Assembly (NCBI RefSeq): GCF_002834295.1
Contig: NZ_PISP01000005.1
Span: 49,114 to 113,113, forward strand
Source of the DNA: Rhodohalobacter barkolensis
Lineage (GTDB): Bacteria; Bacteroidota; Rhodothermia; Balneolales; Balneolaceae
Direction of reading: 5' to 3'
DNA length: 64,000 bases
Shown here: piece by piece, positions 23,207-64,000 of the stretch
Layout: every line of letters begins with the position of its first letter
Position numbering within the stretch: position 1 is the first letter of the stretch
Program-made: the position numbers and the translations under genes
Notes under the pieces: model-generated
Databases searched by the model: none
What the model was told of the DNA's origin: nothing
What the model saw: the letters and a program-made list of their open reading frames with translations, nothing else

Positions 23207-23462
23207 AAAATCTGAAAAGTCGTTTTTGTGTTATTCTTTGTGCGTAAGATAGCAAATACCCTGTTGAGGGGCGACAGGTAACGATTTTCTTTACAAATTA
23301 TGAGAGAACCATGCCTATAAGTTTTAAAGTTGAAAGATAGGTGAGAACCGTGCATGTAAAGTTTACATTTGGTTCGGATCAGTATAACCTAAAGAGTAGG
23401 TTTTGAGAGTGAAAGGTAAGGTAAAGGCGAGTTTGTTTCCTCTCAATACGTCTGGATAAAAT
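23207..23462. other. Gene-free stretch upstream of rocD
   Basis: No credible gene. Upstream of rocD, it holds a short imperfect direct repeat, GAGAACCATGC near 23303 and GAGAACCGTGC near 23343, each followed by an A/T-rich TAAAGTTT-like tail. A role in rocD expression is possible but not shown. Confidence 0.4.
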
Positions 23463-23560
23463 AAAAGCCCAACTGCGTGAGCAATTGAGCTTTTTTTTAA
23501 GAGTGGTGGGTTCGAACCAAAGTCCGCCTCAGGCGGATAAGAGCCCGACGAGCTATCCTT
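23463..23560 (-). pseudogene. Degraded tRNA-fMet fragment plus terminator copy (module 1)
   Basis: On the minus strand this reads as the anticodon-arm and T-arm part of an initiator tRNA (CTCGTCGGGCTC kept, TTCGAACC kept). The anticodon is altered, a CCGCC-TCA-GGCGG palindrome replaces the variable region, and the acceptor stem is incomplete. It is followed by a terminator hairpin nearly identical to that of the intact tRNA at 24181-24214. It cannot fold as a normal tRNA. Confidence 0.65.
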
Positions 23561-23800
23561 TCATGAAGTTTTCACGAATCCATTTTCGTCCCTGTCCACC
23601 CTTAAGCATTTTTCTCTTTTTAAGGCATCTGCCTTGGTTTTGTACAGTTCGGTATGAATAATTTTCCATGGCCGGTATTTAACTGTCCAGCCTTTCGTGG
23701 CAAGTTTGTTATGAGCCTTGAATCGTTGCTGAAGGTTAGATGTATAGCCAATATAGATTTTGTCGTATTTTTCCGAGTGTAGGATGTATACAGTAAACAT
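23561..23800 (-). pseudogene. GIY-YIG nuclease-domain gene, frameshifted copy
   Basis: 79 residues with the GIY-YIG core (FTVYILHSEKYDKIYIGYTSNLQQR) almost identical to the copy at 23910-24158. Near 23608-23614 one base is missing relative to that copy. The conserved tail LKGGQGRKWIREN is lost and replaced by an unrelated CLRVDRDENG tail. Start ATG at 23800. The product may be inactive. Confidence 0.75.
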
Positions 23801-23818
23801 GATGTTGGGGCCTAAAAC

Positions 23819-23935
23819 AAAAAAAGCCCAACTGTGTGAACAATTGAGCTTTTCTAAAAGTGGCTGGTTCGAACCAACGTCCGCCTCAGGCGGATATGAG
23901 CCCGATGAACTACCTCTTTAATAAATTTTCACGAA
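23819..23935 (-). pseudogene. Degraded tRNA-fMet fragment plus terminator copy (module 2)
   Basis: Second fragment. It keeps GGGCTCAT with the CAT anticodon and a GGTTCGAACC T-arm, but carries the same CCGCC-TCA-GGCGG insertion and lacks a normal acceptor stem. The 3' end of the GIY-YIG gene at 23910 runs into it. Same terminator-like tail as the other copies. Confidence 0.6.
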
Positions 23936-24158
23936 TCCATTTTCGTCCCTGTCCACCCTTAAGCATATTTTCTCTTTTTAAAGCATCTTCCTTGGTTTTG
24001 TACAGTTCGGTATGAATAATTTTCCATGGCCGGTATTTAACTGTCCAGCCTTTCGTGGCAAGTTTGTTATGAGCCTTGAATCGTTGCCGAAGATTAGATG
24101 TATAGCCAATATAGATTTTGTCATATTTTTCCGATTGTAGGATGTATACAGTAAACAT
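23910..24158 (-). CDS. Small GIY-YIG nuclease-domain protein
   Basis: 82 residues that make up a single GIY-YIG domain: YILQSEKYDKIYIGYTSNLRQRFKAHN at about 5-31, then an Arg-rich middle and the conserved tail LKGGQGRKWIRENLLKR. The Tyr pair, Arg and a C-terminal Glu (IRE) of the fold are present. Small stand-alone members are related to the UvrC N-domain, but their role is unknown. Start ATG at 24158. The gene lies downstream of the intact initiator tRNA and is followed by a degraded tRNA copy. Confidence 0.85.
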   Translation of the reverse strand: MFTVYILQSEKYDKIYIGYTSNLRQRFKAHNKLATKGWTVKYRPWKIIHTELYKTKEDALKRENMLKGGQGRKWIRENLLKR

Positions 24159-24180
24159 GATGTTGGAGCCTAAAACAAGA

Positions 24181-24214
24181 AAAGCCCAACTGCGCGAGCA
24201 ATTGAGCTTTTTTT
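24181..24214 (-). terminator. Terminator of the initiator tRNA
   Basis: On the minus strand AAGCTCAAT and an imperfect complement (GTTGGGCTT) form a hairpin directly after the tRNA. Two near-identical copies occur at about 23466-23500 and 23822-23856, marking a repeated module. Confidence 0.6.
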
Positions 24215-24218
24215 AAAG

Positions 24219-24291
<73 letters not shown>

Positions 24292-24880: not shown

Positions 24881-24952
24881 TGCCCCGGATGGGGCATTAT
24901 ATTTGTAAGAAGCTGCCCCGTCACTACAGTAACTGCCCCGGCGGTGCAGTAC
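24881..24952. repeat. RAYT-1 palindrome pair beta 1
   Basis: TGCCCC-GGAT-GGGGCA (24881-24896) and TGCCCC-GGC-GGTGCA followed by GTAC (24934-24952), separated by TTATATTTGTAAGAAGC-like sequence. The loops are the complement sense of the alpha pairs, so this is the mirrored end. It lies just upstream of the transposase gene. Confidence 0.75.
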
Positions 24953-25016: not shown

Positions 25017-25481
25017 ATGGCTGATACGTACACTCAACTTTATATCCACTTTGTGTTTGCCGTTCAAAACCGGAGAAGTATCATTCACCCTGACTGGGAG
25101 ACTAAACTTTTTAGGTACATGACGGGAATTATTCAGAATAAATCACATAAAATGATTGCCATTAATGGCATGCCCGATCATATTCATATGTTTATTGGGT
25201 TTCAGCCGGTAGATCATATGTCAGAACTCATCAAAGTAGTCAAGGGAGAGACATCAAAATGGATTAATGACAATGGATTGGTTCGTGTGAAATTCAGATG
25301 GCAGGAGGGTTATGGTGCGTTTTCTTATAGCAGAAGTCATATCGATAGGGTTTATCGCTATATTCAGAATCAAAAAGAACATCACAGAAAGAAGTCGTTT
25401 CAGGAAGAGTATATTGAGTTACTGAAGGCGTATGGTGTGGAGTATGATGAGAAGTTTATCTTTAAACCTGTTGCTTACTAA
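25017..25481 (+). CDS. REP-associated tyrosine transposase (RAYT-1, IS200-like Y1)
   Basis: 154-residue HUH single-strand transposase: HxH at His55/His57 in MPDHIHMF, and the nucleophile Tyr, most likely Tyr115, in VYRYIQNQKEHH. The C-terminal EEYIELLKAYGVEYDEKFIF is typical of the REP-associated branch. Start ATG at 25017 with a strong AAAGGAGG Shine-Dalgarno, unlike most neighbours. It is bounded by mirrored hairpin pairs (beta 1 left, alpha 2 right) of its own palindrome family. About half of the residues match the second RAYT at 43765. A plain IS200 element is the alternative; surrounding hairpins favour RAYT. Confidence 0.88.
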   Translation: MADTYTQLYIHFVFAVQNRRSIIHPDWETKLFRYMTGIIQNKSHKMIAINGMPDHIHMFIGFQPVDHMSELIKVVKGETSKWINDNGLVRVKFRWQEGYGAFSYSRSHIDRVYRYIQNQKEHHRKKSFQEEYIELLKAYGVEYDEKFIFKPVAY

Positions 25482-25487
25482 AGCGGT

Positions 25488-25557
25488 GTACTGCATCTCC
25501 GGTGCAGGGAGAAGTTCGGAGTGCGGTTTATTACAAAGCTACTGCTCCTCCGGAGCA
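25488..25557. repeat. RAYT-1 palindrome pair alpha 2
   Basis: GTAC then TGCATC-TCC-GGTGCA (25492-25506) and CTAC then TGCTCC-TCC-GGAGCA (25543-25557). Same order, spacing and loops as alpha 1, and starts seven bases after the transposase stop. Confidence 0.75.
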
Positions 25558-39118: not shown

Positions 39119-39128
39119 TCCGGATTCC

Positions 39129-39221: not shown

Positions 39222-39450
39222 GTGTCGTGAGACACGCCAGCGCATCTTAGCCCCACAATTCATTGTAGGGTCTTCAATAATATCCCGGATAAATAAATGC
39301 CGTAGACACGGCCCACAGAATGTAGGTTGGATAAAACATCTGGGTTAAGATATCTCTGTGAATCATGCCTACGGCATTCTGTATGGATATTGCTTTCCAC
39401 ATACCACAGGTTGAAACCTGTGGCTAGTGTGTGGGTCATGACTACGCCAT
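39222..39450 (+). repeat. Composite palindrome unit A
   Basis: Six hairpins in order: P1 GTGTCGTGAGACAC (39222-39235), P2 (39251-39270, one mismatch), P3 (39297-39309, decayed), P4 ATGCCTACGGCAT (39365-39377), P5 CCACAGGTTGAAACCTGTGG (39404-39423), P6 (39438-39450, one mismatch). The linker to unit B is 97 bp and matches that between G and H. Confidence 0.85.
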
Positions 39451-39547: not shown

Positions 39548-39775
39548 GTGTCGTTAGACACGTAAACGTGGTCTAGCCCCACAATTTATTGTGGGGTATT
39601 CAATCTCCCCCGAATTGTCCAATGCCGAAGGCACGGCCCACAGAATGTAGGTTGGATAAAACATCTGGATTAAGATATCTCTGTGCACCATGCCTACGGC
39701 ATTCTGATTGGATATTGCTTTCTACACACCACAGGTTGAAACCTGTGGCTAGTGTGTGGGTCATGGCTACGCCAT
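39548..39775 (+). repeat. Composite palindrome unit B
   Basis: P1 (39548), P2 CCCCACAATTTATTGTGGGG (39577-39596), P3 decayed (39622), P4 (39690), P5 (39729-39748), P6 ATGGCTACGCCAT (39763-39775). Spacer between P3 and P4 is about 55 bp. Open frames crossing it are accidental. Confidence 0.85.
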
Positions 39776-39931: not shown

Positions 39932-40087
39932 GTGTCGTTAGACACGCCAGCGCATCTTAGCCCCACAATTCATTGTGGGGTCTTCAATAGTTTCTCGGAT
40001 AGATAAGTGCCGTAGGCACGGCTCACAAGATATTGGATGGATATTTAAACCAGGAAACGAAATTTCTGTGCACCATGCCTACACCAT
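39932..40087 (+). repeat. Composite palindrome unit C, right end deleted
   Basis: P1 (39932-39945), P2 (39961-39980) and P3 GTGCCGTAGGCAC (40007-40019) are intact. P4 starts normally (ATGCCTAC) but continues as the end of P6 (CCATTTAG-like), so P5 is missing. This looks like recombination between the P4 and P6 TAC loops. A P7 palindrome follows at 40108. Confidence 0.75.
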
Positions 40088-42406: not shown

Positions 42407-42634
42407 GTGTCGCTAGACACGAATCACATCTTAGCCCCACAATTCATTGTGGGGTATTCAATAGTCTCACGAATTCTCTAGTGCCATAGGCACAGCCCAC
42501 AGGATAATGGTTAATCAAATAATCCGGATAAGGATATTCCTGTTAATCATGCCTACGGCATTCTAAATGGATGTAGTATTCCACATACCACAGGTTGAAA
42601 CCTGTGGCTAGGATGTGGGTCATGGCTACGCCAC
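42407..42634 (+). repeat. Composite palindrome unit D
   Basis: P1 GTGTCGCTAGACAC (42407), P2 (42435-42454), P3 GTGCCATAGGCAC (42481), P4 (42549), P5 (42588-42607), P6 (42622-42634). First of a run D-E-F-G repeating every 392-395 bp. Confidence 0.85.
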
Positions 42635-42798: not shown

Positions 42799-43028
42799 GT
42801 GTCGTTAGACACGCCAACACATCTTAGCCCCACAATTCATTGTGGGGTATTCAATAGTCTCCCGAATTTATTTAGTGCCATAGGCACGGCCCACAGGAAG
42901 ATGGTTGATCAAGAAATCCGTAAAAAGGTATCTCTGTGAATCATGCCTATGGCATTCTAACCGAATGTTGTATTCCACATACCACAGGTTAAAACCTGTG
43001 GCTAGGATGTGGGTCATGGCTACGCCAT
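42799..43028 (+). repeat. Composite palindrome unit E
   Basis: All six hairpins: P1 42799, P2 42828-42847, P3 42875, P4 ATGCCTATGGCAT 42943, P5 42982-43001, P6 43016-43028. The D-E linker (about 163 bp) closely matches the B-C and E-F linkers. Confidence 0.85.
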
Positions 43029-43190: not shown

Positions 43191-43420
43191 GTGTTGTTAG
43201 ACACGCCAGTACATCTTAGCCCCACAATTCATTGTGGGGTGTTCAATAGTCTCCCGAATTTATTTAGTGCCGTAGGCACGGCCCACAGTATGTAGGTTGA
43301 TCAAATAATCCGGCAAAAGATATCTTTGGTCATCATGCCTACGGCATCCTGGCTGAATGTTGTATTCCACATACCGCAGGTTAAAACCTTTGGCTGAAAT
43401 GTAATTCATGGCTACGCCAT
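43191..43420 (+). repeat. Composite palindrome unit F
   Basis: P1 GTGTTGTTAGACAC 43191, P2 43220-43239, P3 GTGCCGTAGGCAC 43267, P4 43335, P5 43374-43393 with two mismatches, P6 43408-43420. The E-F linker is of the 163-bp type. Confidence 0.85.
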
Positions 43421-43585: not shown

Positions 43586-44333
43586 GTATCGTTAGACACG
43601 ATAACACATCTTAGCCCCAAAATTCATTGTGGGGTTCTTCATAGATGGCGATAGTAGAAAGTGCCGTAGGCACGATTGATATATTTAACAATAATCTCTT
43701 TTTTCAATAAAATTAAGAGGTAAAGAGAGATATTTTAAACAATTAACCTAAGGGGAGAGGAGAAATGGCAAATACATATCACAAAATTTATCTGCATACC
43801 GTATTTGCAGTTAAGAATAAAAAAGCATTGATAAGCCCGGAGTGGGAATATAAGCTACACTCTGTTATTGGAAATTTAATAAATCAATCAGGTGGTAAAT
43901 CCTTAATAGTAAATGGTATGCCGGATCATATTCATTGTTTTTTCCAAAAACAGCCATCAATTTCTGAATCAGAATTGATGCAATCGGTGAAAGCGAAATC
44001 ATCAAAATGGATCAATGATAATGGATTGTCTGTGCGTCGATTTTCCTGGCAAAAAGGATTTGGCTGTTTTTCGTATAGCGAATCACAAAAAAATGACGTC
44101 TACAGATATGTCCGGAATCAAAAAGAGCACCATCGAAAAATGACGTTTAGGGAGGAGTACGAGAAGCTTCTCAAATCATTCAATGTTCAATATGATGATA
44201 AATTCATTTTTACCGGATTGGATTGAATACGTGAATCCTGTGCACCATACCTACGGCATTCTAACTGGATGTTGTATTCCATATACCACAGGTTGAAAAC
44301 CTGTGGCTAGGATATAGGACATGGCTACGCCAT
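43586..44333 (+). mobile_element. Composite unit G carrying the RAYT-2 gene (putative autonomous element)
   Basis: Left half as in other units: P1 (43586-43599), P2 (43615-43634), P3 GTGCCGTAGGCAC (43661-43673). Right half: P4 ATACCTACGGCAT (44247-44259), P5 (44286-44306, one extra base), P6 (44321-44333). Between P3 and P4, where other units have about 55-70 bp, lies a 460-bp transposase gene with its own ribosome-binding site. Hairpin ends plus a Y1 transposase make a 748-bp element. The other units then look like internal-deletion derivatives, though insertion of the gene into a unit is also possible. Confidence 0.8.
43765..44226 (+). CDS. REP-associated tyrosine transposase (RAYT-2, IS200-like Y1)
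   Basis: 153 residues: HxH His55/His57 in MPDHIHCF, and nucleophile Tyr, probably Tyr115, in VYRYVRNQKEHH. Start ATG at 43765 behind GGGGAGAGGAGA, a good Shine-Dalgarno. It shares its N-terminus (MANTYHKIYLH), the SKWINDNGL segment and the tail (EEYEKLLKSFNVQYDDKFIF) with RAYT-1 but is clearly diverged. It sits exactly in the P3-P4 gap of unit G, the only gene-bearing copy seen. By family knowledge it would cut and join single-stranded hairpin ends; activity is not shown here. Confidence 0.88.
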   Translation: MANTYHKIYLHTVFAVKNKKALISPEWEYKLHSVIGNLINQSGGKSLIVNGMPDHIHCFFQKQPSISESELMQSVKAKSSKWINDNGLSVRRFSWQKGFGCFSYSESQKNDVYRYVRNQKEHHRKMTFREEYEKLLKSFNVQYDDKFIFTGLD

Positions 44334-44431: not shown

Positions 44432-44660
44432 GTGTCGTTAGACACGCCAGCACATCTTAGCCCCACAATTCATTGTGGGGTGTTCAATAGTCCTCCGAAT
44501 TATTTAGTGCCGTAGGCACGGACCACAGGATAATGGTTAATCAAATAATCCGTAAAAAGGTATCTCTGTGCATCATGCCTACGGCATTCTAACTGGATCT
44601 CGCAATCCACATACCACAGGTTAAAACCTGTGGCTAGGATGTGGGTCATGGCTACGCCAT
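44432..44660 (+). repeat. Composite palindrome unit H
   Basis: P1 44432-44445, P2 44461-44480, P3 GTGCCGTAGGCAC 44507-44519, P4 44575, P5 44614-44633, P6 44648-44660. The G-H linker (98 bp) matches the A-B linker, so G-H and A-B may come from a common duplicated pair. Confidence 0.85.
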
Positions 44661-50054: not shown

Positions 50055-50102
50055 GAAGTTTATTAACAATCTCGGGTTTTAAATATACCGGCCATGTGCA
50101 CC

Positions 50103-50187
50103 GTGTCTACGGCACTGAATACTTAGGGTGCCATTCAACCCCCACAATGAATTGTGGGGCTAGGATGTGTTACCGTGTCTACGACAC
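50103..50187 (-). repeat. Composite palindrome unit I, partial
   Basis: Opposite orientation to A-H. Only P3 (50103-50115, one change), P2 CCCCACAATGAATTGTGGGG (50140-50159) and P1 GTGTCTACGACAC (50175-50187) are present; P4-P6 are missing. A 128-bp linker leads to unit J. Confidence 0.8.
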
Positions 50188-50315
50188 TGGGTTTAAAACA
50201 GCATTTTGCTTAAAAGTATAGATTCAATACATCGGGAAGTATGTTGAGTCATGCTTTTACCATTCTTCATAATTTTAAATCATATAGGCAATTTGAATTA
50301 CCATGCACAACCCAA

Positions 50316-50545
50316 ATGGCGTAGCCATGGCCTACGTCTTAGCCACAGGTTTTAACCTGTGGATTGGGAAATGGTTAGACAATTCAGAATGCCGTAGGCA
50401 TGACATACAGGAAGGATGTATTCCTGTCTTTAAAACAATCAATTTGCATTATTTAAGCCGTGCCTACGGCACTGAACAATCGGGGTGGCCATTCAACCCC
50501 CACAATGAATTGTGGGGCTAGGATGTGTTACCGTGTCTACGACAC
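50316..50545 (-). repeat. Composite palindrome unit J
   Basis: P6 ATGGCGTAGCCAT (50316-50328), P5 CCACAGGTTTTAACCTGTGG (50343-50362), P4 ATGCCGTAGGCAT (50389-50401), P3 GTGCCTACGGCAC (50460-50472), P2 (50498-50517), P1 (50533-50545). Complete and well preserved. The linkers on both sides are 128 bp and almost identical. Confidence 0.85.
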
Positions 50546-50673
50546 TGGGTTTAAAACAGCATTTTGCTTAAAAGTATAGATTCAATACATCGGGAAGTAT
50601 GTTGAGTCATGCTTTTACCATTCTTCATAATTTTAAATTATATAGGCAATTTGAATTACCATGCAAAACCCAA

Positions 50674-50957
50674 ATGGCGTAGCCATGGCTATACATCTTA
50701 GCCACAGGTTTTAACCTGTGGTCTTTGAAATGAAAAATATATTTAGAATGCCGTAGGCATGAGACACTTGTTTGGGGTTAATTCATTTAAGACCTGACGG
50801 GTTTCAAAAACCTGTCAGGTCTGGGATTTATAAATAATCTCGGGTTTGGAAGATACCGGCCATGTGCACCGTGCCTACGGCACTTGAGAATTAGGGTGCT
50901 CATTCAAATCCCCACAATGAATTGTGGGGCTAGGATGTGTTATCGTGTCTACGACAC
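50674..50957 (-). repeat. Composite palindrome unit K with P7 inside
   Basis: P6 50674, P5 50702-50721, P4 50748-50760, then a P7 palindrome at 50790-50822 inside the spacer, then P3 50871-50883, P2 50910-50929, P1 50945-50957. The insertion makes it about 55 bp longer than J. Confidence 0.85.
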
Positions 50958-51085
50958 TGGGTTTAAAATAGCATAATGCTTAAAAATATAGATGCAACAC
51001 CTCGGATAGTTTGTTAAGTCATGCTTTTACCATTCTTCATAAATTTAAATTATCTATGAAATTCGAATTACCATGCACAACCCAA

Positions 51086-51316
51086 ATGGCGTAGCCATGA
51101 CCAAACATCTTAGCCACAGGTTTCAACCTGTGGATTGGGAAATGGTTAGACAATTCAGAATGCCGTAGGCATGACATACAGGAAGGTTGTATTCCTGTTT
51201 TAAAAACAACCAATTTGCATTATTTAAGCCGTGCCTACGGCACTTGAGAATTAGGGTGGCCATTCAACCCCCACAATGAATTGTGGGGCTAAGATGTGTT
51301 ATCGTGACTACGACAC
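51086..51316 (-). repeat. Composite palindrome unit L
   Basis: P6 51086-51098, P5 CCACAGGTTTCAACCTGTGG 51114-51133, P4 51160-51172, P3 51231-51243, P2 51269-51288, P1 51304-51316 (one mismatch). The K-L linker is again 128 bp. Confidence 0.85.
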
Positions 51317-51869
51317 TGGATTCCATGAGATGGGTAAAACTAAAACATGAATGGTCCCAACCATTAATCAGGCAGATGGTTTATGTGATTCTTAACCAAT
51401 ATTTATAGAGGTGAATATTCTGGTGACAATTGAAAACAAGGGGCACTTCTTAAACCGGAACATATCAACCGGACTGTATTTGATTTTGTTTGGCTATCAA
51501 TGGCTGTAGTTCACTAAGTCCAAAAATTTTAATGATTTCACTTCATTTACACAGATTAACAATCAAAGAGTAAGGCGACGCTCTGTTTACAAGATTAAAT
51601 AAAATATAATTAAGGGAATAAGAACTGTAAAGTCTGTAAGTGCTTTAAATATATCTTTTAAAGGGAATTATAAGTTTATTGCCATGTTAAAAAAAGATTA
51701 ACAAAATTTTGATATTGTAAATTCTTCGATTAGATTCCATCAACTGTAAAAACAGTGAACAGATCTACTTGGCTCAATCGCTCTAAAACTAATAGTTGTT
51801 CACTCTGATTTAGAGTGTTTGGCTGATAATCTGACCATTAATTAAAACATCAAATAACTGAGGTTACGT
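51317..51869. other. AT-rich region upstream of SusCD 2
   Basis: 553 bp with no credible gene and no further palindrome unit. It presumably includes the promoter and 5' leader of SusC 2. I could not find a convincing TAnnTTTG element. Confidence 0.4.
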
Positions 51870-63454: not shown

Positions 63455-63563
63455 TGGGTTGTGTAATATATATCTTACTTTTTTTATGGATGATTTTTCA
63501 AAGTTAAAAATGATTGGGATAAGACGACTGTAATAATTCGAAATTGATTACGATCCACACCCA

Positions 63564-63834
63564 ATGGCGTAGCCATGCCCAACATCATAGCCACAGGTTT
63601 CAACCTGTGGTAGGTGAGGCTAACGAAATGCAGAATACCGTAGGTATGGAACACGTGCTTGGTATGAATTATACCAAGATTCAAACCCTGTCAGGTCTGG
63701 GATTACAACATGATCTTTAGCCAGGAAATCCCCGGTCACGTGGATCGTGCCTACGGCACTCTGTGGGTTTGTTTAGCATTTTGTATCCCCACAATAAATT
63801 GTGGGGCTATGATGTGTTAGCGTGTCTATGACAC
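63564..63834 (-). repeat. Composite palindrome unit N with P7 remnant
   Basis: P6 ATGGCGTAGCCAT (63564-63576), P5 CCACAGGTTTCAACCTGTGG (63591-63610), P4 ATACCGTAGGTAT (63635-63647, compensated stem), a half P7 (CCTGTCAGGTCT near 63688), P3 GTGCCTACGGCAC (63747-63759), P2 (63787-63806), P1 (63822-63834). Confidence 0.85.
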
Positions 63835-63931
63835 TGGATTATTCAATATGGTTTAACCTTCTGTGATTTTGTTCAGGGCCTTTTACAACGAATGGGTAGG
63901 GATTTCGATACGGTTCTGCTTTCCAACCCAA

Positions 63932-64000
63932 ACGGCGTGGCCGTGATCCACATCATAGCCACAGGTTTCAACCTGTGGTTTTAGAGTCGGGAAAGAGCGT
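63932..64000 (-). repeat. Composite palindrome unit O, cut by window end
   Basis: P6 ACGGCGTGGCCGT (63932-63944, stem changed on both sides) and P5 CCACAGGTTTCAACCTGTGG (63959-63978). The unit continues beyond the window. Confidence 0.75.

Follow-up and report, generated by a model that had tools for sequence, protein, structure and literature searches.

Members of the IS200/IS605 family carry left-end and right-end hairpins in the same strand sense, and the ends of IS608-type elements are not known to be inverted repeats. Subclass 1.2 of the Y1 transposases is described, in the accessible part of its defining paper (PMC6006769, Quentin et al. 2018), as a group of proteins of about 150 residues (about 148) from Cyanobacteria and Bacteroidetes with the motifs DH[IV]H, WQ and Y---Q--HH, the last being its published mark. 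According to the same part of that paper, these genes are few and diverged in each genome and are associated neither with REPs nor, in general, with IS200 terminal structures. RAYTs appear incapable of self-mobilisation in the accessible text of PMC3116915, where the ancestor put forward by Bertels and Rainey is an autonomous element with flanking REPs. In TIRtrons, as far as the available text of PMC3733652 (Di Nocera et al. 2013) goes, some repeats contain self-complementary tracts and a few belong to repeated families; TIRYT has been suggested to correspond to subclass 2.1 (PMC6006769, accessible part).

The window, the whole stretch of 64,000 nucleotides of Rhodohalobacter barkolensis DNA that was analysed, contains a locus at 43586-44333, hereafter unit G, in which a gene for a 153-residue HUH/Y1 transposase is flanked by three hairpins on its 5' side and three on its 3' side. 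Unit G consists of the following features.

43586..43599, + strand: short hairpin P1, GTATC-GTTA-GACAC, one mismatched pair
43615..43634, + strand: long hairpin P2, CCCCAAAA-TTCA-TTGTGGGG, one mismatched pair, TTAG immediately 5'
43661..43673, + strand: short hairpin P3, GTGCC-GTA-GGCAC
43765..44226, + strand: Y1/HUH transposase gene, subclass 1.2 by motif (H55, H57, W95-Q96, Y115, Q119, H122-H123)
44247..44259, + strand: short hairpin P4, ATACC-TAC-GGCAT, one mismatched pair, inverted relative to P3
44286..44306, + strand: long hairpin P5, CCACAGGTT-GAA-AACCTGTGG, CTAG right before the stem on the reverse strand
44321..44333, + strand: short hairpin P6, ATGGC-TAC-GCCAT, inverted relative to P1

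The hairpin-flanked gene is thereby confirmed, and it lies exactly between P3 and P4, as the initial annotation had placed it. Each arm is composed of a short, a long and a short hairpin. The loop of the short hairpins is GTA or GTTA when read towards the gene, and the right arm is inverted.

The protein contains DHIH, WQ and YVRNQKEHH and matches Pfam Y1_Tnp. It passes the NCBIfam IS200/IS605 model NF033573 (60.9 against a cut-off of 55 bits) and fails the REP-associated transposase model NF047646 (28.4 against 80 bits), and it has NQ in place of the NP of the RAYT motif Y---NP. A canonical RAYT, the label first given to this gene, is ruled out by the family model and by the Y---Q--HH motif, which assigns the enzyme to Y1 subclass 1.2. 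Among 44 aligned relatives, H55, H57, W95, Q96, Y115, Q119 and H123 are invariant and H122 is nearly so. With an AlphaFold2 model (mean pLDDT 92.9) as the query, Foldseek places the predicted fold closest to ISDra2 and IS608 TnpA (E ~1e-7), and the match of the model to the REP transposase 4er8 (TnpA_REP) is weaker (E 1.4e-5). The window contains one other gene of this type.

25017..25481, + strand: second subclass-1.2-type gene

Short hairpins are located at 24881 and 24932 (imperfect) upstream of this gene and at 25543 downstream, and no long hairpin is found there at the threshold used. Elsewhere, on the minus strand at 23460-24291, two near-identical small ORFs read MFTVYILHSEKYDKIYIGYTSN or close to it and are GIY-YIG-like by eye; each has a terminator-like repeat and a piece like the 3' end of the adjoining tRNA-Met gene (24218-24291).

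Family units were searched for by BLAST in the 3.6-Mb genome (7 contigs), P3 being read from the sequence where BLAST missed it. Besides truncated units and solo arms, the genome contains 12 complete gene-free units and the one gene-bearing unit. The annotated coexistence of a single gene-bearing unit with many gene-free ones is therefore correct, and the genome-wide search found no second gene-bearing copy of this family. Of the complete gene-free units, each with P1 to P6, ten are in the window (six on the plus strand and four on the minus strand) and two on contig C4. The units and pieces in the window are listed below.

39222..39450, + strand: gene-free unit A
39548..39775, + strand: gene-free unit B
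39932..40087, + strand: gene-free unit C, truncated, lacking the stretch from P4 to P6, with P4 joined to P6 at a shared CTAC
42407..42634, + strand: gene-free unit D
42799..43028, + strand: gene-free unit E
43191..43420, + strand: gene-free unit F
44432..44660, + strand: gene-free unit H (within the BLAST query)
51073..51317, - strand: gene-free unit
50661..50958, - strand: gene-free unit, 110-nt spacer with a GACCTGACAGG-type palindrome
50303..50546, - strand: gene-free unit
50095..50188, - strand: solo left arm
63555..63835, - strand: gene-free unit near the window end, spacer of about 99 nt
63923-63979: further right-arm piece (P5, P6) near the window end

The spacer of the gene-free units is 55 nt in seven plus-strand units, with the truncated unit C counted, and 58 nt in two minus-strand units, so that the range of 55-70 bp originally given describes 9 of 13 units. 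In the other four, a spacer of about 99-110 nt contains the whole or a part of the GACCTGACAGG... palindrome. Unit G shares its layout with the gene-free units, as had been claimed. One pair is mismatched in each of its hairpins P1, P2 and P4, so that other units are better preserved than the one with the gene. Unit H folds 5.2 standard deviations below 200 dinucleotide shuffles (z = -5.2), and in its fold P3 and P4 are able to pair across the spacer in a REPIN-like manner. Changes on both sides of a stem keep the pairing in P6 on C4 (ACGGC-CAC-GCCGT) and in P4 at the window end (ATACC-TAC-GGTAT). Because of this fold score and these two-sided changes, the hairpins of the gene-free units are not due to chance. 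Unit G sits in a tandem array in which the linkers from P6 to P1 are repeated as well, giving a BIME-like arrangement. Another palindrome, GACCTGACAGGTTT..AAACCTGTCAGGTC, occurs in the window at 39128, 40106, 42313, 44679, 30452, 50021 and 50789 and has many matches in the genus. Copies of it stand on either side of the two plus-strand arrays (39.1-40.1 kb; 42.3-44.7 kb), at distances that are alike, and it has invaded the spacers of four gene-free units.

Hairpin flanks are common in this enzyme class. From 75 HMM matches in the own genome and its relatives, 67 non-redundant full-length subclass-1.2-like loci were retained (the genus/order set) after removal of the partial or broken matches, namely L016, L017, L131 and two pieces each of L018 and L019; L088 is left out of the 67, as it repeats the same upstream sequence. 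A set from named genomes comprises the best 80 of at least 589 matching relatives. Together these make 147 loci, and 138 remain after nine with short flanks are left out. When 260 nt on each side were scanned at a hairpin threshold of 6.5, at least two hairpins were found on both flanks of 94/138 loci, compared with 6/690 dinucleotide shuffles and 7/176 control ORFs of the same loci, and at least three on both flanks of 39/138 loci, compared with 0/690 and 1/176. The genus/order set has at least two on both flanks in 54/64 loci and at least three in 27/64, and the named set is weaker (40/74 and 12/74). Stems of 5 bp, for example ATGCC/GGCAT, escape at a threshold of 7.0, which gave at least two on both flanks in 43/64 and 30/74 loci. 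Hairpins are absent from at least one flank at 17 of the 138 loci, including L187 and L188 of the clade to which unit G belongs. Among the class members analysed, the multi-hairpin layout is thus the prevailing form and no isolated exception, as it had been taken to be unusual. The flanks contradict the published description of subclass 1.2, not membership of the subclass by sequence.

These hairpins are oriented. Read towards the gene, loops are GTA 94 times and TAC 39 times, and GAA 53 times and TTC 16 times, so that they are inverted between the left and right flanks and not in the same sense as in IS200/IS605. The most frequent distances between neighbouring hairpins are 11-14 and 34-38 nt, and minor peaks occur at 22 and 25 nt. 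Of 79 short gaps, 30 end in TAG, TAA or CAG, a number that averages 17.8 and never exceeds 25 in 300 shuffles. Hairpin sequences vary from gene to gene, and some groups of loci have no long hairpin. Inverted similarity between left and right flanks was considered as a single test and is weak, exceeding the 99th percentile of cross-locus pairs at 46/138 loci only, with direct similarity as common (61/138). Nor is a universal GTAG foot supported. The bias among 328 hairpins with stems of at least 7 is modest, GTAG being found 7 times on the 5' side and twice on the 3' side and NTAG 20 and 9 times, respectively, and the arms in the window carry TTAG and CTAG.

In a FastTree tree, the unit G gene falls into a 13-row clade (SH-like 98) whose hosts are Flavobacterium, Spirosoma, an Algoriphagus MAG, Saprospiraceae, a Bacteroidales MAG and its own genus. 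Most of the 13 rows show long hairpins on one side or both, and GTAG stands immediately before the long stem in L188, L189 and L190. No right arm was found within 300 nt of L187 and L188, and L189 has no comparable left arm. Across the phylum, the class model matches 93 of 198 high-quality genomes at E <= 1e-20, a count in which the matches are not sorted by subclass.

The gene-free units were initially interpreted as internal-deletion, MITE-like derivatives of a full-length element. The nine spacers of 55 or 58 nt were compared with the interior of unit G, and eight have no similarity to it (p 0.135-0.87), the remaining one giving p 0.01. Recognisable internal deletions of unit G are therefore unsupported in the window family. 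Because 8/9 spacers have no remnant, its gene-free units either would have arisen long ago or would be independent arm pairs. The idea holds in another family of the same genome. In a unit beside L011 (4388-4641), P1-P2-P3 is followed by a few bases of the leader, the end of the gene and P4-P5-P6, BLAST placing query positions 19-116 and 565-658 six bases apart, and by this structure it is identified as a direct internal-deletion derivative. The paralogous place at L016 has no such deletion unit. The genome contains at least three L011-type genes, which are diverged (81-91%); the number is a lower bound because four contig ends lie within such genes. Three of them (L011, L016 and L017) have an in-frame TAA where the WQ motif has its conserved Gln.

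Gene-bearing units of this kind seem to be mobile, because near-identical copies are present in one relative and orthologous sites without a unit in others. The loci L087 and L088 lie 187 kb apart in one genome. Their left arm and leader are identical (233/233) and their genes nearly so (453/456), the stretch from the stop codon to past P6 agrees at 132/159 positions, and the outer flanks are about 50% identical in a global alignment. The similarity begins ~3 nt before P1 and stops ~16 nt past P6, with one extra short matching patch upstream, AACAAACATGNATCCA. Its drop at the stop codon suggests that the left arm and the gene came together and that the right arm has another history. Each of the two copies has a right arm on its upstream side and a left arm on its downstream side, and the linkers are dissimilar. 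At the site of L014, the unit is absent from the genomes G019 and G009, where the flanking sequence is 81-83% identical; in G009 a terminator-like hairpin stands there uninterrupted, and in G019 its place is taken by a related hairpin that is imperfect. The insert of the own genome extends by eye from ~43 nt before P1 to ~32 nt past P6, and the left stem of the hairpin is doubled beside it. At the site of L012, G019 has a solo right arm and G009 a single fused hairpin. The gene-bearing unit of the own genome is next to a right arm there, and one more P6-like copy follows that arm. At the site of L015, the unit is absent from G009, at a terminator-like hairpin; the insert is 1.3 kb long and includes other hairpins, and G019 has a different palindrome pair there. 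Judged by eye, the insert is located at a terminator-like hairpin in two of these three cases and next to a resident arm in the third. The sites without a unit could also be losses instead of gains.

Other loci share units across unrelated flanks. L081 and L112, in two genomes, share a 696-bp unit at 83% that spans from 1 nt before P1 to ~37 nt past P6. In Phaeodactylibacter xiamenensis, two genes whose left flanks differ agree at 92.7% over 520 bp, the one such pair among 30 loci of 11 named genomes. Near-identical gene copies are rare in relatives, where 60 stretches contained one pair (in G005). Neither a common target word nor a common cleavage site was found by eye in the three site comparisons, and the ends of the inserts differ from case to case. 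The coincidence of the ends with P1 and P6 that the initial annotation had supposed thus does not always apply. The autonomous element that it proposed fits the apparently mobile units at L087/L088 and L014, which are outside the family of unit G. In G009, the site orthologous to unit G is a stretch of 523 bp from one matched neighbouring gene to the other that contains no hairpin unit, and G009 has family arms at another site, near a contig end before the upstream gene pair. By this comparison the array with unit G is absent from G009, but the intergenic similarity is too low for placing the ends.

A promoter-like motif, TGTAAGG-N15-GTTCATA, is located with up to two mismatches upstream of 43/66 subclass-1.2 genes of the genus/order set, including L012, L015 and L087, and in 1/660 shuffles. 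It precedes none of the 79 genes of the named set, and it is absent upstream of the unit G gene, where the best match has five mismatches. In the own genome, TGTAAGG-N16-TTCATA occurs exactly eight times (L306-L313) and the reversed control not at all. These eight motifs are followed by two canonical REP transposases (108 bits against 80), a ComF-like protein (E 1.5e-24, which falls short of the curated cut-off), a ComEA-type protein that exceeds the cut-off of TIGR00426, a YifB protein (623.7 against 362.4), known as ComM in the context of competence, two four-helix-bundle proteins and an RraB-like protein. Three of the eight, in this one genome, precede competence-type genes (comF-, comEA- and yifB/comM-like). 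A motif shared with such genes suggests a link between DNA uptake and single-strand transposition; literature searches covering open-licence papers found no paper that links subclass 1.2 to competence. Unit G may itself be inactive, as three of its hairpins contain mismatches, its gene is without the promoter-like motif and a second gene-bearing copy is absent.

The best-supported reading of these sequence comparisons is that the arms would be the substrate of the enzyme class and that the gene-bearing unit is or was mobile. More specifically, a subclass-1.2 Y1 gene lies between two inverted hairpin arms, and these arms are probably the sites at which the enzyme would bind and cut single-stranded DNA, so that either the gene-bearing unit or the arms by themselves would be carried elsewhere. 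The enzyme would recognise its own arms, the long hairpin with its 5' NTAG foot serving as a REP-like core, and excision and integration would proceed via single strands. Existing hairpins would be favoured targets, in view of the terminator-like hairpins at two of the compared insertion sites and the resident arm at the third. Gene-free arms would be moved in trans or spread through recombination. A bolder version, which is put forward only tentatively, is that these units are a living, self-moving IS200-class ancestor form of REP/RAYT that jumps from hairpin to hairpin, with inverted multi-hairpin arms that transport the gene and also multiply in its absence, its transposase being wired in this lineage to the competence promoter and made when incoming single-stranded DNA is present.

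An ordinary REPtron or REPIN system, in which a domesticated, immobile RAYT has flanking REPs that spread in trans, would account for the gene-free inverted arm pairs and BIME-like alternating arrays, for the NTAG foot 5' of the long hairpin with GTAG in several relatives, for P3-P4 pairing across the spacer of a gene-free unit and for the single gene copy in the family of unit G. Such a system is nevertheless unlikely, given that the enzyme fails the RAYT model (28.4 against 80) and has Y---Q--HH instead of Y---NP, that near-identical gene-bearing copies occur in a relative (L087/L088) and that the short hairpins mostly have a GTA loop. A plain IS200/IS605 element that ends in hairpins and, being old, has been rearranged by recombination agrees with the IS200/IS605 model that the protein passes (60.9 against 55) and with the structural match of the predicted fold to IS608 and ISDra2 TnpA. 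It is less probable still, as the arms are inverted around the gene, unlike IS608-type ends, and 94/138 loci have at least two hairpins per side. The subclass is also said, in the accessible part of PMC6006769, to be without shared IS properties. Least probable are terminators or mRNA stabilisers that insulate a rarely expressed gene, with arrays grown by host recombination and the transposase a bystander: tandem duplication with conserved linkers, slippage-like or recombination-like deletions at shared stems (P4 to P6 and P1 to P6) and the rarer hairpin flanks of control genes (7/176) agree with this, but oriented loops, regular spacing, hairpin sequences that differ between genes and a gene with arms common to unrelated sites do not.

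The preferred reading, in which the arms serve the enzyme, can be set beside the known systems. The enzyme agrees with TnpA_Y1 subclass 1.2 in length, in DHIH, WQ and Y---Q--HH and in the few diverged genes per genome; it differs from the published subclass in that most loci here have hairpins on both flanks and some units look mobile. Literature searches among open-licence papers brought up nothing on hairpin arms in subclass 1.2; the subscription literature may differ. Because the subclass is without a DNA partner in the accessible part of its defining paper (PMC6006769), the arms are a candidate for this partner. With IS200/IS605 elements (IS608 and ISDra2), the units share the HUH/Y1 fold, the catalytic residues and hairpins near both ends, whereas here the arms are inverted and composite and no fixed cleavage site was found. 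With TIRtrons, they share a Y1 gene between inverted repeats; the available text of PMC3733652 describes single or double inverted repeats, and oriented short-long-short arms and apparent gene mobility, which that text does not mention, are features of the units here. With the REPtron/RAYT systems, as presented in the accessible parts of PMC8266576 and PMC3116915, they share oriented palindromes, gene-free inverted pairs and arrays, as well as a 5' NTAG or GTAG foot on some long hairpins, whereas here the enzyme belongs to another class, the arms have two or three hairpins and many loops are of the GTA type. Genes for tnpA_REP are mostly single-copy with no evidence of mobility in the accessible part of PMC8266576, whereas gene copies here appear to have moved: the relatives are not confined to one immobile copy (L087/L088; at least three L011-type genes), and the family of unit G has one. 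By this analogy, units of arms plus gene fit the proposed ancestral element flanked by REPs, whether by descent or by parallel invention, and are a candidate for the autonomous form from which REPs may have originated.
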